Assembly (NCBI GenBank): GCA_017854655.1
Contig: JAFMHF010000017.1
Location: forward strand, 1-35,263
Direction of reading: 5' to 3'
DNA: 35,263 bases
From: Puniceicoccaceae bacterium
GTDB taxonomy: Bacteria > Verrucomicrobiota > Verrucomicrobiia > Opitutales > Coraliomargaritaceae
Below the pieces are notes generated by a model that was not told the origin of the DNA, made no database searches, and saw only the letters and a program-made list of their open reading frames with translations. The translations under genes were made by a program, and so were the position numbers. This document shows, in pieces, positions 6,729-34,028 of the stretch (position 1 is its first letter; every line of letters begins with the position of its first letter).

Positions 6729-6766
6729 TTGGTTTATCGTCGAGAACTGGGAAAGCCTAAAGAAGA

Positions 6767-6823
6767 GAGGGCGACTCGCCCTCCTTCGCAGCAACACAGG
6801 ATCAACGTGGGCGAGTCGCCCAC
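6767..6823. repeat. pair of GGGCGASTCGCCC palindromes
   Basis: Two 17-nt palindromes with one central unpaired base: GAGGGCGACTCGCCCTC at 6767-6783 and GTGGGCGAGTCGCCCAC at 6807-6823. The same family recurs at 18969-19074. They sit in a gene-free spacer after a terminator, like REP-type extragenic palindromes. Confidence 0.85.
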
Positions 6824-6964
6824 AATCCTATTTTAATCGCTCAGGTAGACCACCATAAGGATGCCTTCGACGCGAAATGACGAAAAGCTTTTTTTGTTTC
6901 ACGTCATCCGAAATCCGCACGCATACCAGAATCATTTATTTTCGCTTGCTGGAGGGGCGTTTGA
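6824..6964. other. remainder of the ppdK to GYF_2 spacer
   Basis: No gene seen. There is a weak nested inverted repeat: ATGACG (6877-6882) and CGTCAT (6902-6907) around AAAAGCTTTT. A GGAGG at 6951-6955 lies 9 nt before the ATG at 6965. Confidence 0.4.
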
Positions 6965-15655: not shown

Positions 15656-15660
15656 TCTTT

Positions 15661-15686
15661 AGTAACACACTTCGCCTGTTACTTTT
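15661..15686 (+). terminator. weak hairpin after hpt, possible terminator
   Basis: AGTAACA (15661-15667) pairs with TGTTACT (15677-15683) over a nine-base loop and is followed by only three T residues. The stem is short and AT-rich, so readthrough into the DAHP synthase gene is plausible. Confidence 0.35.
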
Positions 15687-15687
15687 C

Positions 15688-15718
15688 AAGTCTCAGCCCT
15701 CAGCTCTCTCACTGACAC
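15688..15718 (+). repeat. degenerate heptamer tract before the DAHP synthase start
   Basis: The 30 nt before the ATG at 15719 are pyrimidine-rich and read as near-repeats with 7-nt spacing (GTCTCAG, CCCTCAG, CTCTCTC). A shorter piece with the same TCTCAGCCCTCA core stands after the PpiD-like gene's terminator near 11195. No Shine-Dalgarno sequence is present. Confidence 0.5.
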
Positions 15719-16780
15719 ATGTCCACAACACACGACAACCGCCGTATTGCCGGTAACCGCCCACTCTTACCGCCAGCAATTCTGATCGAAGAAATTCCGC
15801 TCACTGAAAGAGCGACAACCGTGGTCGAGAACGGACGCGCCGAGAGCGAAGCCATCCTCAATGGCAACGATGATCGCCTGATCGTCGTCGTCGGCCCGTG
15901 TTCGATTCACGATACCAAAGCGGCAATCGAATACGCCGAGCAACTGCTGCCTCTCGCGGAGAAGTATAAAGCCGATCTACAAGTGATCATGCGCGTGTAT
16001 TTCGAAAAGCCACGCACGGTGGTGGGCTGGAAGGGGCTCATTAACGACCCCAACATCGACGGCAGCTTCGAGATCAACTCCGGCCTACGCATCGGCCGTA
16101 AACTACTGGTCGACATTGCTGAACTCGGCCTGCCGACCGGCGCTGAATTCCTCGATACCATCATTCCACAGTTCATCGCCGATGCTATCGCATGGTCCGC
16201 CATCGGCGCACGTACCACCGAGAGCCAAGTCCACCGCGAACTCGCTTCTGGCCTCTCCATGCCGGTCGGTTTTAAAAACGGCACCAGTGGCAACGTGCAA
16301 ATCGCAATGGATGCGGTGCGCTCTGCGGCCCAGCCACACTGGTTTCCGTCCGTCACCAAGCAAGGCGTGACCGCAATTTTCCAAACAACTGGCAACCCAT
16401 CGGCACACCTAATTCTACGTGGCGGCAACCGTACAGGCCCTAACTACGAGGCCAAGGATGTCGAACCGATCTTAGAGCAACTCGCCGCCGTCGACTTGCC
16501 GCAAAAGCTGATTGTCGATTGCAGCCACGGCAACAGCAACAAGGATTACACCCGCCAAACCGCAGTCGCCAAGACACTCGCCGAACAAATCTCAGCAGGC
16601 CAACATGGCATCGCCGGAGTCATGCTTGAAAGTCACCTCGTCGGCGGTCGCCAGAACTACGACGTAAATGGTGACAATGTCTATGGCCAGAGCATCACCG
16701 ACGAGTGCATCGACATGCCAGCCACTGCAACCATTCTCGAAGAACTCGCCAAGGCGGTGCAAGCACGACGTAAAGCCTAG
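15719..16780 (+). CDS. aroG: 3-deoxy-7-phosphoheptulonate synthase (class I DAHP synthase)
   Basis: 353 aa. Condenses PEP and erythrose-4-phosphate, the first step of the shikimate pathway. Type I (AroF/G/H) signatures: VVVGPCSIHDTKAAIEYAEQL, VIMRVYFEKPRTVVGWKGLINDPNIDGSF, LPTGAEFLDTIIPQFIADAIAWSAIGARTTESQVHRELASGLSMPVGFKNG in separate stretches of one conserved block, DCSHGNSNKD, and GVMLESHLVGGRQ. Length matches E. coli AroG. The feedback-sensitivity subtype (Phe, Tyr or Trp) cannot be decided by eye, so the symbol is by family only. ATG start preceded by a pyrimidine heptamer tract. Confidence 0.96.
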   Translation: MSTTHDNRRIAGNRPLLPPAILIEEIPLTERATTVVENGRAESEAILNGNDDRLIVVVGPCSIHDTKAAIEYAEQLLPLAEKYKADLQVIMRVYFEKPRTVVGWKGLINDPNIDGSFEINSGLRIGRKLLVDIAELGLPTGAEFLDTIIPQFIADAIAWSAIGARTTESQVHRELASGLSMPVGFKNGTSGNVQIAMDAVRSAAQPHWFPSVTKQGVTAIFQTTGNPSAHLILRGGNRTGPNYEAKDVEPILEQLAAVDLPQKLIVDCSHGNSNKDYTRQTAVAKTLAEQISAGQHGIAGVMLESHLVGGRQNYDVNGDNVYGQSITDECIDMPATATILEELAKAVQARRKA

Positions 16781-18789: not shown

Positions 18790-19194
18790 ACCTGACTAGT
18801 TACCCCTAACTAACATATGAAAAAGCCATGCATTGCATGACGCTTTATGTAATGCCTACGCCGGAGAAGAAGTTCCCGAAAAATGGAGTTTTTTTTATTA
18901 CTGGAAAACCAGTCATATATGCGGATGAAAAACGACCCGCTTCGCTACTAATAAACAGTTAAAGGAGTGTGGGCGACTCGCCCACGTCCACCAACGAGGG
19001 CGGTTCGCCACAATGAACAGTTAAAGGAGTGTGGGCGACTCGCCCACGTCCACCAACGAGGGCGAGTCGCCCTCACTCCATTACAAAATACATGCATAAA
19101 GGCTGGGAATCGAATGATGCAATGGAATTGGGACAATCCCGAAGCACGGCAAACATCCGTAGCGACTGGCTTTATGCCAATGCCAGAATCTGGA
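18790..19194. other. 405-nt gene-free stretch holding a palindromic repeat block
   Basis: No credible gene on either strand. The stretch from 18790 to 18950 is AT-rich and featureless apart from short self-complementary bits. The centre (18954-19077) is a 62-bp tandem duplication built from GGGCGASTCGCCC palindromes. From 19080 up to the methyltransferase stop nothing stands out. The short ORFs crossing the block are by-products of the GC-rich repeats. Confidence 0.6.
18954..19077. repeat. 62-bp tandem direct repeat carrying four palindromes
   Basis: Two copies of a 62-nt unit start at 18954 and 19016 with AACAGTTAAAGGAGT. Each unit carries GTGGGCGACTCGCCCAC (18969-18985; 19031-19047) and then a GAG-capped partner. 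In copy 2 the partner is a perfect GAGGGCGAGTCGCCCTC (19058-19074). In copy 1 it has decayed to GAGGGCGGTTCGCCAC (18996-19011). Same family as 6767-6823. Confidence 0.9.
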
Positions 19195-23730: not shown

Positions 23731-23809
23731 AAAAGAAGTTAGAAGGTAGTAGCCAGAAGGAAGCCTCAGATCGGACTTCTAACTCCTGACTTCCAACTTC
23801 TAGCTCCTT
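23731..23809 (+). repeat. paired purine/pyrimidine heptamer tracts between cysJ and pfkB-like gene
   Basis: Directly after the cysJ stop comes a purine tract with 7-nt period (AGAAGTT, AGAAGGT, AGTAGCC, AGAAGGA; 23734-23763). After 11 nt a pyrimidine tract follows with the same period (GACTTCT, AACTCCT, GACTTCC, AACTTCT, AGCTCCT; 23774-23808), ending six nt before the next ATG. The arms are imperfectly complementary (22 of 31 positions by my alignment), so the spacer could fold into a long interrupted hairpin. A similar pair lies at 33833-34027. Confidence 0.8.
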
Positions 23810-23814
23810 AACCA

Positions 23815-24857: not shown

Positions 24858-24934
24858 AATCTCCTCACAGCTGATTAGGAATAAGATTACGAGTATGATT
24901 ATGACCTACCCTCCATAAAAAATCAGATTCAAGG

Positions 24935-24964
24935 TTCGACGTTCGGCGTTTGATGTTGGACGTT
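24935..24964 (+). repeat. heptamer tract before polA
   Basis: TTCGACG, TTCGGCG, TTTGATG and TTGGACG follow each other with exact 7-nt spacing, ending six nt before the polA ATG. Same position and periodicity as the tracts before the pfkB-like and add-like genes, but a different unit. Confidence 0.75.
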
Positions 24965-24970
24965 ATTTAA

Positions 24971-27784
24971 ATGCCCAAGACGCTCTATCTTCTCGATGGT
25001 ATGGCCCTCGCCTACCGCGCACACTTTGCCCTGATCCGTAGCCCGATTTATACCTCCAAAGGCTTCAACTCGTCGGCTATCTTTGGATTCACCGGCACCC
25101 TGATCGAGCTGATCACCAAGAAGCAACCCAGTCACCTCGCGGTGGTCTTTGATACTTCTGCACCAACCGCACGCCACATTCTGCACCCAGAATACAAGGC
25201 ACAACGCGAAGCCATGCCGGAAGACCTCGCCGCCGCGATGCCGCACCTTAGCCGTGTCGCTGAAGCGTTCGGGATTCCTGTACTCAAGATGGATGGCTAC
25301 GAAGCCGACGACATTATTGGCACCCTCGCTCACCGTGCTGAGGCCGATGGATTTGACGAAGTCTTCATGGTCACTCCTGATAAAGACTTTGGCCAACTTG
25401 TGACCGAAAAGATCAAAATGTATCGCCCCTCCCGCCAAGGTGACGGCGCAGAAATTCTAGGTATCGATGAGATCAAAGCGAAGTGGGACATCATTCGCGT
25501 CGATCAAGTCATTGATATGCTCGGCCTCTGTGGCGACGTCTCCGACAACATCCCCGGCGTGCCCGGCATCGGCCCCAAGACCGCAGCCAAGCTCCTCGCG
25601 GCCTACGACAACGTCGACAACATCATCGCCCACGTCGACGAGCTGAAAGGCAAGCAACAAGAACGCGTGCGCGACAATGCCGAACAAGCCCGCCTCTCCA
25701 AGACCCTCGCCACGATTCAATTGGATGTGCCAATTGATGCCGAATGGGATAACCTACGCCTCGACGCGCCGAGCCAGGACAAGCTGGTGCCTTTGTTTGC
25801 CGAATTTGAATTCCGCACCCTAGCCAAACGCATTTTCGGCAGCGATTTCACCATCCAAGAAGCCAGCTCCGAGCTGGTGCTAATGAGTGAGGACGACGAG
25901 AAGACACAGGCCAAGCAACCCGCCGCTGACAGTTCCGGCGATCTACAACTCGACCTACTTCCCGCCGTCACCTACACCACCTTTACAGATACAAAGACCG
26001 ATTACCGCATCGCTGACTCTGCCGAAACACTCAAGCAGTTGACCGATGCACTGCGCGCTGCCGGCAGCTTTGCCTTTGATACCGAAACCACCGGGCTCAA
26101 CCCACGCAGCGTCGATCTAGTCGGCATCTCATTTTCAACCAAAGCGCACAGCGGCTGGTTCGTGCCAGTCTCGAAAGGCAACTCCGCCGCAGTGTTCGAC
26201 GTCTTGCGCCCCGTATTCAGTGACGGCAGCCTCGCTAAAATCGGCCACAATTTAAAATTCGACCTATCGATTCTAGCCGAACAAGGCATCGACGTCGCTG
26301 GCCACTGCTACGACACGATGTTGGCACACGCGCTGATCGATCCAGAGCAGCGCCACAATCTCGACACGCTGTCGGAAGATTTCCTGCAATACACCACGAT
26401 TCGTTTCAGCGAACTCGTGCCTGATGTAAAGAAGGGTCAGCCAATCGACTACTCTTCGGTCAAACCTCAAGCCCTCGCAGATTACGCGATCGAAGATGCC
26501 GACGTCACACTGCAGCTATGGGAACTATTTAAAGCGAAACTTGAAGAAAGCGGCCAAGCCAAAGTTTTTTACGAAATTGAAACACCCCTGCTCCCCGTGC
26601 TCGTGGCGATGGAGCGTGAAGGTATTTTGATGAACGAAGCGACACTGGTCGATACCGGCAAGTCGCTCGAAGGCCACATCGAAACACTGCGCGAGTCGAT
26701 CAACGCCGCCGCTGGACGCGAGTTCAACCTCAACTCCCCTAAGCAACTCGGTGAAATCTTATTCGACGAACTCAAGCTGGTCGAAAAACCAAAGAAGACC
26801 AAAACCGGTCAATACGCGACCAACGAACAAGTACTCTCCTCGCTCGCACCAAAGCACCCGATCGTCGCCGACATTCTCGAATACCGCCAACTGACCAAAC
26901 TCAAAAGCACCTATATCGATTCATTGCCCAATTCAATCGATCCAGTCAGCGGTCGCGTGCATACCAACTACGGCCAAGTGCAAACATCAACAGGTCGTCT
27001 CTCTTCAAACGATCCCAACCTGCAAAACATTCCCGTGCGCAGCGTGCAGGGTCGCGAGATTCGCAAAGCCTTCATCGCACGCCCAGGATGGAAACTACTC
27101 TCGGCCGATTACTCGCAAATCGAGCTACGTATCCTCGCTGCACTGACTGAAGATACAGGCCTGCTCAACGCCTTTCGCGAAGGCCGCGACATTCACGCCG
27201 CCACCGCTGCGAAAATCTTTAATGTCGGACTCGACGAAGTCACACGCGAGCAACGCAGCACCGCCAAGATGGTCAACTTCGGGATCCCTTACGGTATTTC
27301 CGCCTTCGGCCTAGCCCAACGCCTCGGCACTGTTTCGCGCACCGAAGCGCAGGAGATCATCAACAACTACTTCGCGCAGTTCCCTGGCATCCCCGGCTAC
27401 ATGTCGCGCATGCAAGACAGCGCCAAAGCCACAGGCTACGTCGAAACTATCACTGGACGACGACGTTATCTGCAGGATATTAATTCCAGAAATGGCACCA
27501 TCCGTGCCGCTGCTGAGCGCAATGCGATCAACATGCCGATCCAAGGCACCGCCGCCGACATGATTAAAATCGCGATGGTGAACGTGCAAAACGCATTGGT
27601 CGCGCAGAATCTCAATACCCGTATGCTGCTGCAGGTGCATGACGAATTGATCTTCGACCTCGACCCTAGTGAAGAGACCACAGTGCGCGCCCTCGTCACC
27701 GAAGGCATGAAAAAAGCTCTCGACTTAAAGTGCCCGATCGAGATCGACATTGGCCTCGGCGATAACTGGCTGGAAGCCCACTAA
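24971..27784 (+). CDS. polA: DNA polymerase I
   Basis: 937 aa, full three-domain enzyme. The 5'-3' exonuclease (about 1-300) shows LLDGMALAYRAHFAL, AVVFDTSAPTARH, DGYEADDIIGTLA and GVPGIGPKTAAKLL. The 3'-5' proofreading domain (about 345-530) is intact: AFDTETTGLNP (Asp370, Glu372), GHNLKFDLSIL and YAIEDADVT. The polymerase domain contains NDPNLQNIPVR, LSADYSQIELRILAAL (Asp713), TAKMVNFGIPYGISAFGL (O helix) and LQVHDELIFD (Asp891). Role: removal of RNA primers and gap filling in replication and repair. No Shine-Dalgarno sequence; a heptamer tract precedes the start. A linker of about 40 residues with low complexity (EDDEKTQAKQPAADSSG) joins the first two domains. Confidence 0.98.
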   Translation: MPKTLYLLDGMALAYRAHFALIRSPIYTSKGFNSSAIFGFTGTLIELITKKQPSHLAVVFDTSAPTARHILHPEYKAQREAMPEDLAAAMPHLSRVAEAFGIPVLKMDGYEADDIIGTLAHRAEADGFDEVFMVTPDKDFGQLVTEKIKMYRPSRQGDGAEILGIDEIKAKWDIIRVDQVIDMLGLCGDVSDNIPGVPGIGPKTAAKLLAAYDNVDNIIAHVDELKGKQQERVRDNAEQARLSKTLATIQLDVPIDAEWDNLRLDAPSQDKLVPLFAEFEFRTLAKRIFGSDFTIQEASSELVLMSEDDEKTQAKQPAADSSGDLQLDLLPAVTYTTFTDTKTDYRIADSAETLKQLTDALRAAGSFAFDTETTGLNPRSVDLVGISFSTKAHSGWFVPVSKGNSAAVFDVLRPVFSDGSLAKIGHNLKFDLSILAEQGIDVAGHCYDTMLAHALIDPEQRHNLDTLSEDFLQYTTIRFSELVPDVKKGQPIDYSSVKPQALADYAIEDADVTLQLWELFKAKLEESGQAKVFYEIETPLLPVLVAMEREGILMNEATLVDTGKSLEGHIETLRESINAAAGREFNLNSPKQLGEILFDELKLVEKPKKTKTGQYATNEQVLSSLAPKHPIVADILEYRQLTKLKSTYIDSLPNSIDPVSGRVHTNYGQVQTSTGRLSSNDPNLQNIPVRSVQGREIRKAFIARPGWKLLSADYSQIELRILAALTEDTGLLNAFREGRDIHAATAAKIFNVGLDEVTREQRSTAKMVNFGIPYGISAFGLAQRLGTVSRTEAQEIINNYFAQFPGIPGYMSRMQDSAKATGYVETITGRRRYLQDINSRNGTIRAAAERNAINMPIQGTAADMIKIAMVNVQNALVAQNLNTRMLLQVHDELIFDLDPSEETTVRALVTEGMKKALDLKCPIEIDIGLGDNWLEAH

Positions 27785-33828: not shown

Positions 33829-33832
33829 ATTA

Positions 33833-34027
33833 AAAGGAGAAAGGAGTTAGTAGATAGAAGTTAGGTATTCTTATTCAGCGACTTAAGAAACGCGATAAAG
33901 TCGCTATTTGGCTTCGCCCTGCGGTTGAGTGTCGCTGTGCTCGGAAGGCGACGTTCGTCTCAGTTGTAAATAGACTGACCATCTGGGACTAACTTCTGAC
34001 TCCTATCTTCTAACTACTCTTTTTAGG
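33833..34027 (-). repeat. paired purine/pyrimidine heptamer tracts between M29 gene and add-like gene
   Basis: Read on the minus strand, just after the aminopeptidase stop there is a purine tract of 7-nt units (AGTAGTT, AGAAGAT, AGGAGTC, AGAAGTT). Just before the add-like ATG there is a pyrimidine tract with the same period (AACTTCT, ATCTACT, AACTCCT, TTCTCCT). About 120 nt of non-repetitive sequence separates them. Units AGAAGTT and AACTTCT/AACTCCT are the same as in 23731-23809. Confidence 0.8.
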
Positions 34028-34028
34028 A

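Follow-up and report, generated by a model that had tools for sequence, protein, structure and literature searches.

Intervening sequences (IVS) of 23S rRNA with an S23p/IVP open reading frame (ORF), as in Coxiella, are small elements with complementary, stem-forming termini and the S23 ORF inside the IVS; the stem is cut by RNase III in Coxiella (PMC4990558). TAACTGA heptamer repeats are described from Beggiatoaceae, Cyanobacteria and Bacteroidetes (MacGregor 2015, PMC4679880); they lie mostly within several nucleotides upstream of start codons in a context poor in ribosome-binding sites, they are direct repeats with only one inverted, and no four-helix-bundle or S23 gene is named in that paper (PMC4679880). 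MITEs with 5-bp target duplications are comparable to elements of a species of the same genus (G010; described below) in being about 200 nt long and ORF-less with inverted ends. The cyanobacterial STRR repeats are degenerate heptamers such as TGACTTC, TGAATTC and TGACTCC. To our knowledge the heptamer repeats of cyanobacteria, Beggiatoaceae and Bacteroidetes have no known origin, and the four-helix-bundle/S23 proteins are common proteins for which we know of no function.

The locus analysed here is nearest to the 23S IVS in architecture, not in location. The element lies in an intercistronic mRNA spacer rather than in an rRNA gene, its arms are degenerate tandem heptamer arrays, and the S23/IVP ORF is absent from this copy; the ORF is present in elements with the same arms between gltB and gltD. 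In position and unit the TAACTGA repeats are the nearest relatives of the start-adjacent arrays (TAACTGA versus TAACTTC). The difference from MITEs is that the ends are made of heptamer arrays and that no transposase was found in a PF13701 search of 12 genomes. On plasmids of Trichormus and Nostoc (L452, L457), four-helix genes have arms built of STRR-like heptamers; a tie between the two is absent from the STRR papers that could be searched, and the present comparison concerns plasmids. Avd of diversity-generating retroelements belongs to a related protein family, the gltB-gltD protein giving E=3.9e-12 against the Avd model, which is below its cut-off; neither a reverse transcriptase nor a variable repeat was noticed here.

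The spacer between the M29 peptidase and add-like genes

The window is the whole stretch of 35,263 nt that was analysed; its genome of origin (G000) is the MAG of a marine, Coraliomargarita-like member of the Opitutales (Verrucomicrobiota), 2.31 Mb in 141 contigs. By domain assignment an M29 peptidase gene (PF02073; 34029-35141, minus strand), whose closest relatives are Opitutia/Puniceicoccaceae proteins with 99-90% identity, is followed by an adenosine-deaminase-like (add-like) gene (PF00962; 32833-33828, minus strand). Read on the minus strand from 34028 to 33829, the spacer runs TAA-TCCTAAAAAG[AGTAGTT AGAAGAT AGGAGTC AGAAGTT AG]...[CTAACTT CTATCTA CTAACTC CTTTCTC CTTTT]AAT-ATG, with four AGNAGNY heptamers following the M29 stop and RNCTNCT heptamers leading up to the start of the add-like gene; Table 1 collects the features. 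The left end, CCTAAAAAGAG, matches that of the G010 elements, and the middle has two further weak matches within the own genome. No ORF of 100 aa is present inside the 200-nt spacer, and an Rfam search gave no match above the gathering score.

Table 1. Features of the putative element, its second copy and the four-helix genes of the own genome
Feature	Position	Strand	Basis or remark
Putative insertion element: whole spacer, M29 stop to add-like start	33829..34028	-	sequence and orthologue comparison
5' (purine) arm, CCTAAAAAG-AGTAGTTAGAAGATAGGAGTCAGAAGTTAG, directly after M29 stop	33989..34027	-	terminal motif as in G010 elements (CCTWAAAAGAGTAGTTAG)
3' arm, (AGNAGNY)n on +, pyrimidine (RNCTNCT)n on transcribed strand, ends shortly before add-like ATG	33835..33864	+	pattern and period-7
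Part of middle, GGCTTCGCCCTGCGGTTGAGTGTCGCTGTGCTCGGAAGGCGACG	33910..33953	+	common to G010 element middles (GGCTTCGCCCTTCGGTTGAGTATCGCTACGCTCGGTAGGCG in L152)
Candidate target-site duplication, left copy TAAT, overlaps stop codon	34028..34031	-	inferred from sequence, 4/5 bp
Candidate target-site duplication, right copy TAAT	33829..33832	-	inferred from sequence, 4/5 bp
Second copy, cysJ-like flavoreductase/pfkB spacer: two arms and short loop, no middle	23731..23814	+	orthologue in G011 (L234)
Purine arm of second copy	23734..23763	+	pattern
Pyrimidine arm of second copy (AGNAGNY on -), 5 nt before pfkB ATG	23776..23809	-	period-7
Own-genome four-helix gene L398	G000:C12:61479		arrays AATCCT/AGGATT and CACTCT/AGTGGT, given jointly for L398 and L397
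Own-genome four-helix gene L397	G000:C141:4957		arrays given jointly with L398

The same heptamer architecture had been read from the letters in the cysJ/pfkB spacer, and it is confirmed: both spacers have AGNAGNY after the stop and RNCTNCT before the start, both show a period-7 run at p<=0.0025 and stand among the best period-7 leaders, and the three-heptamer pattern AGNAGNNAGNAGNNAGNAG has 12 matches in the 2.3-Mb genome versus 0 for a reversed control pattern. The original prediction also held that the middle 120 nt differ; they do, since in the cysJ/pfkB copy a short loop of about 12 nt stands in place of a middle. Its argument that recurrence in orientation relative to the genes points to a function in mRNA falls away: since the arms are inverted repeats, a purine arm follows the upstream stop and a pyrimidine arm precedes the downstream start in either direction of insertion, and inverted arms read alike from both strands, so that for two-armed copies the recurrence does not argue for a function. 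The proposed intercistronic hairpin can form, as the predicted fold of the window transcript pairs both arms, much as in an IVS stem, with modest stability (z=-2.6); the non-transcribed strand folds equally well, and a strand-specific RNA hairpin was rejected on that ground.

Orthologous M29-add spacers are short and without the element at three loci (L014, L018, L038) and hold other inverted arrays or another element at three more (L013, L015, L016), with gene order unchanged throughout. Spacers lacking both tracts at the same gene order, which the original prediction had named as evidence against itself, thus exist; further copies, whose absence from the genome it had named alongside, are present. 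In the closest species (G009, L230; G011, L237) and at L011 the element is near-identical, at 98.5-99% where 4-fold sites have 83-93% identity. No case for purifying selection on it is made from this, as the whole 7.2-kb region is 97% identical. Elsewhere in the window, 18950-19083 and 6758-6829 hold another family, with palindromic GTGGGCGACTCGCCCAC / GAGGGCGAGTCGCCCTC units; two copies of 62 nt stand in tandem, and a relative in inverted orientation lies 12 kb from them.

Dispersed copies and inverted arrays at four-helix-bundle genes

The heptamer pattern is abundant among relatives, with matches versus control of 261 versus 12 in G010, 45 versus 0 in G016 (same family) and 72 versus 0 in G027 (another family). 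G010 has dozens of dispersed copies of about 200 nt with inverted ends, as in MITEs, with at least 40 scored copies among 113 candidates; their ends are CCTTAAAAG/CTAGG, and their layout is CCTTAAAAGAGTAGTTAGAAG..., a middle with GGCTTCGCCCTTCGGTTG...TCGCTGCGCTCGG, then ...AACTTCTAACTCCTGAATCTAGG. Exact 5-bp target duplications flank about 22 of the 29 distinct elements (counted by hand; a script listing gave most of them twice), as against 6.8% when ends of different elements are paired; examples are TTCAT, ATGAA, TTTAA and ATAAA, with a W-rich consensus of about WTNAW. Together with the presence or absence of the element at orthologous spacers, these copies support the suggestion of a mobile repeat with site preference. 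From the G010 copies with their target duplications, the common middle segment and the orthologous spacers that lack the element or hold another, the window spacer is identified, on sequence grounds, as a degenerate, ORF-less insertion element.

The CCTAGATTC end, which we take to be like that of ISEcp1 (IS1380), suggested IS1380 as mobiliser; this candidate was rejected on the absence of a PF13701 transposase in 12 genomes of the genus. CCTAGATTCGGGAG variants were considered as possible autonomous copies, and no transposase-sized element lies between such ends. Seven G010 loci (L153, L156, L164, L181, L190, L203, L206) have nested insertions inside the heptamer arms; these comprise palindromes of the TTGCTACGCCATCTACGGCAGACCTCCGTC type and an element reading TAATACYATCC...TTGGTATTA.

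Seven sister species share the arrangement gltB-[AGNAG arm]-four-helix-bundle ORF-[AACTTCT arm]-gltD, in which a reverse-complement array stands directly after the gltB stop, ahead of the ORF. The ORF is a member of PF05635/TIGR02436, the family of the protein encoded in 23S rRNA intervening sequences, with 2gsc as a relative in the PDB. No clear target duplication is seen at the gltB-gltD elements, and ORF-bearing and ORF-less forms may therefore move by different routes. Among the loci examined in G010, the genome richest in ORF-less elements, no four-helix gene with AGNAG arms was found. As a side observation, the family genomes g4, g5 and g8 (e.g. G014, G015, G018, G022) have no or almost no AGNAG arrays and also no PF05635 gene; G024 has a few array matches and no PF05635 gene.

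Inverted arrays associate generally with four-helix-bundle genes. They flank 36 of 62 non-redundant four-helix loci but, among 139 matched small genes that likewise have a spacer at either end, a single one (z>4 against a dinucleotide-shuffle null; Fisher p=8e-22), the genes belonging to Verrucomicrobiota, Cyanobacteria and Bacteroidota. Arm flavours include CCCCACT, CCTCTAA, ATCATTC, AACCGAAAACT, AACTCGAAC, CAACAAC, CACTCT and others, in each case as inverted copies of one short-period array. Such arms are present at four-helix genes on plasmids of Nostoc, Calothrix, Anabaena and Geminocystis, and also in Riemerella; on plasmids of Anabaena sp. 90 (L448) and Pseudanabaena galeata (L451) the gene lies with repeat arrays between cas6 and cas4, and one cyanobacterial gene lies between nrdB and nrdA. 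An Azospirillum gene (L459) is, by eye, apparently within a 23S rRNA gene and has a heptamer-like 3' arm; the own genome has two four-helix genes with inverted hexamer-like arrays. No paper linking inverted heptamer arrays to four-helix genes was found in the open-licence literature.

The repeat sequence also tracks the protein clade. For pairs whose insertion sites differ, an arm similarity >=20 is reached by 73% at a protein score ratio >=0.7, as against 0.1-2.6% below a ratio of 0.5; across different sites arm and protein similarity correlate with Spearman 0.13 (2/500 permutations). The AGNAG flavour is essentially one protein clade, with 4 changes versus 10.4 when shuffled, in a tree of 119 columns with many unresolved forks; this clustering is inflated by near-copies at gltB-gltD, which leaves three other sites unaffected. 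The clade joins the Verrucomicrobiota gltB-gltD proteins with L436 and the cyanobacterial plasmid proteins L452/L457, which are at other sites.

Probable origin of the element and its arms as possible leaders

The window spacer is considered, with moderate confidence, to hold an ORF-less element with inverted AGNAGNY/RNCTNCT arrays from a class whose full form carries a four-helix (S23/IVP) ORF, and which would be IVS-like in mRNA spacers. The full form would consist of a four-helix ORF between inverted arrays of a single heptamer flavour, and the ORF-less elements would derive from it or be mobilised by it, no autonomous transposase having been found in the PF13701 search; the window copy is probably an ORF-less relative of the AGNAG four-helix element, since the two agree in their arms and in their A-rich termini. 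In the transcript the arms may fold into a long-stem hairpin, processed or neutral for the flanking cistrons, and the 3' pyrimidine arm would end as a G-poor, Shine-Dalgarno (SD)-independent leader of the add-like gene. Against this explanation, the window copy is itself ORF-less and has a candidate duplication of a mere 4 of 5 bp; the unclear duplications at gltB-gltD, the lack of AGNAG-armed four-helix genes among the G010 loci examined, the PF13701 result and the modest fold, equal on both strands, weigh in the same direction. An ordinary MITE family mobilised by a transposase, with the heptamer TIRs as sub-terminal transposase binding sites and the four-helix likeness convergent, is an unlikely alternative with real points in its favour, namely the W-rich 5-bp duplications and defined ends in G010, the lack of a four-helix ORF in the G010 elements with those ends, and nested insertions there, as in MITE graveyards; it is opposed by the failure to find a transposase with those ends (PF13701, the one family searched, is absent), by the same arm sequence flanking four-helix ORFs with a similar A-rich terminal motif in the same bacterial family, and by the commonness of single pyrimidine arms without MITE ends. 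Local slippage, with tandem heptamers forming and lengthening in each spacer separately and no element involved, would fit the long arrays and their many flavours (TAACTTC, TAATTCC, GTTCGAC, CCACTCT, ATTAGCC); it is very improbable given the target duplications in G010, the inverted, flavour-matched arms common to unlinked loci and species, and the empty orthologous sites.

A cis-acting explanation, compatible with any origin, is that G-poor period-7 pyrimidine arrays ahead of start codons within operons promote SD-independent initiation, for example via ribosomal protein S1, and that selection maintains them. In array-containing regions of small-genome relatives, chosen in any orientation, 45 pyrimidine-sense and 5 purine-sense arrays precede starts, and between most of them and the ATG lie 4-10 nt; many lack a purine arm, the strict pattern missing degenerate arms. 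Genes so preceded, named from translations, include gltD, atpG, atpD, atpA, pdhB, nadB and sufD-like genes, and the commonest form of the RNCTNCT unit is TAACTTC/TAACTCC, not TAACTGA, the Beggiatoaceae repeat (PMC4679880) to which the arrays are otherwise a parallel. In genome stretches taken largely irrespective of arrays, period-7 is marked in tandem-gene leaders (z=5.4 in G000, 4.8 in G016/G023, 7.1 in G010) and weak or absent in divergent ones (0.7, 1.6 and 3.1, respectively); of the 124 tandem leaders in G000, 14 have p<=0.01 at lag 7 where 1.2 are expected, and 1-2 do so at other lags. The unit varies between leaders, and at atpG, atpD and gltD it differs from one species to the next, with position and composition unchanged. 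Of the suggestion of a translation signal in an SD-poor genome, the absence of SD enrichment in the genomes examined and the placement of the arrays thus hold, and the leader role itself is plausible: the arm may have been co-opted as a translation leader, given that no SD signal is seen and that pyrimidine arms mostly lie 4-10 nt before starts. That selection keeps such arrays as leaders is a more tentative proposition, since most genes have no array and syntenic orthologues manage without one, and since starts were called with a simple ORF script on fragmented MAG contigs. The gltD arrays are 0.88-0.95 identical among G001, G002, G009 and G016, against about 0.5 at gltD 4-fold sites, while unrelated AGNAG arrays are already 0.65-0.86 alike; as evidence of selection on the leader this was downgraded, because those spacers contain the four-helix ORF and the arrays are its 3' arms, so that the conservation may be that of the element.

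A broader form of the ORF-less-element explanation is that four-helix genes and inverted arrays, the latter recognised by the protein of their own clade, are cross-phylum selfish 'mRNA intervening sequences' in operon spacers and rRNA that give off ORF-less copies and whose 3' arms stay behind as SD-independent leaders; this is put forward as a conjecture that may well fail. If true, it would explain both the STRR heptamers of cyanobacteria and the TAACTGA repeats known from giant sulfur bacteria. Through the link between arrays and four-helix genes (36/62 versus 1/139, with the repeat following the clade), both acquire a role that can be tested, as the two partners of a single element. Should the 3' arm also support SD-less translation, it would act as a mobile leader and allow operons to tolerate the insertion. 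At six gltD loci (L268, L269, L272, L275, L277, L278) there is no four-helix element, and the leader has an octamer-like CTTTCAA/CCTTCAC pyrimidine repeat that is similar across species. Further leader flavours are seen in the window, with GTTCGACGTTCGGCGTTTGATGTTGGACG at 24910-24970 before a gene at 24971 and TCTCAGCCCTCAGCTCTC at 15660-15718 before a gene at 15719.
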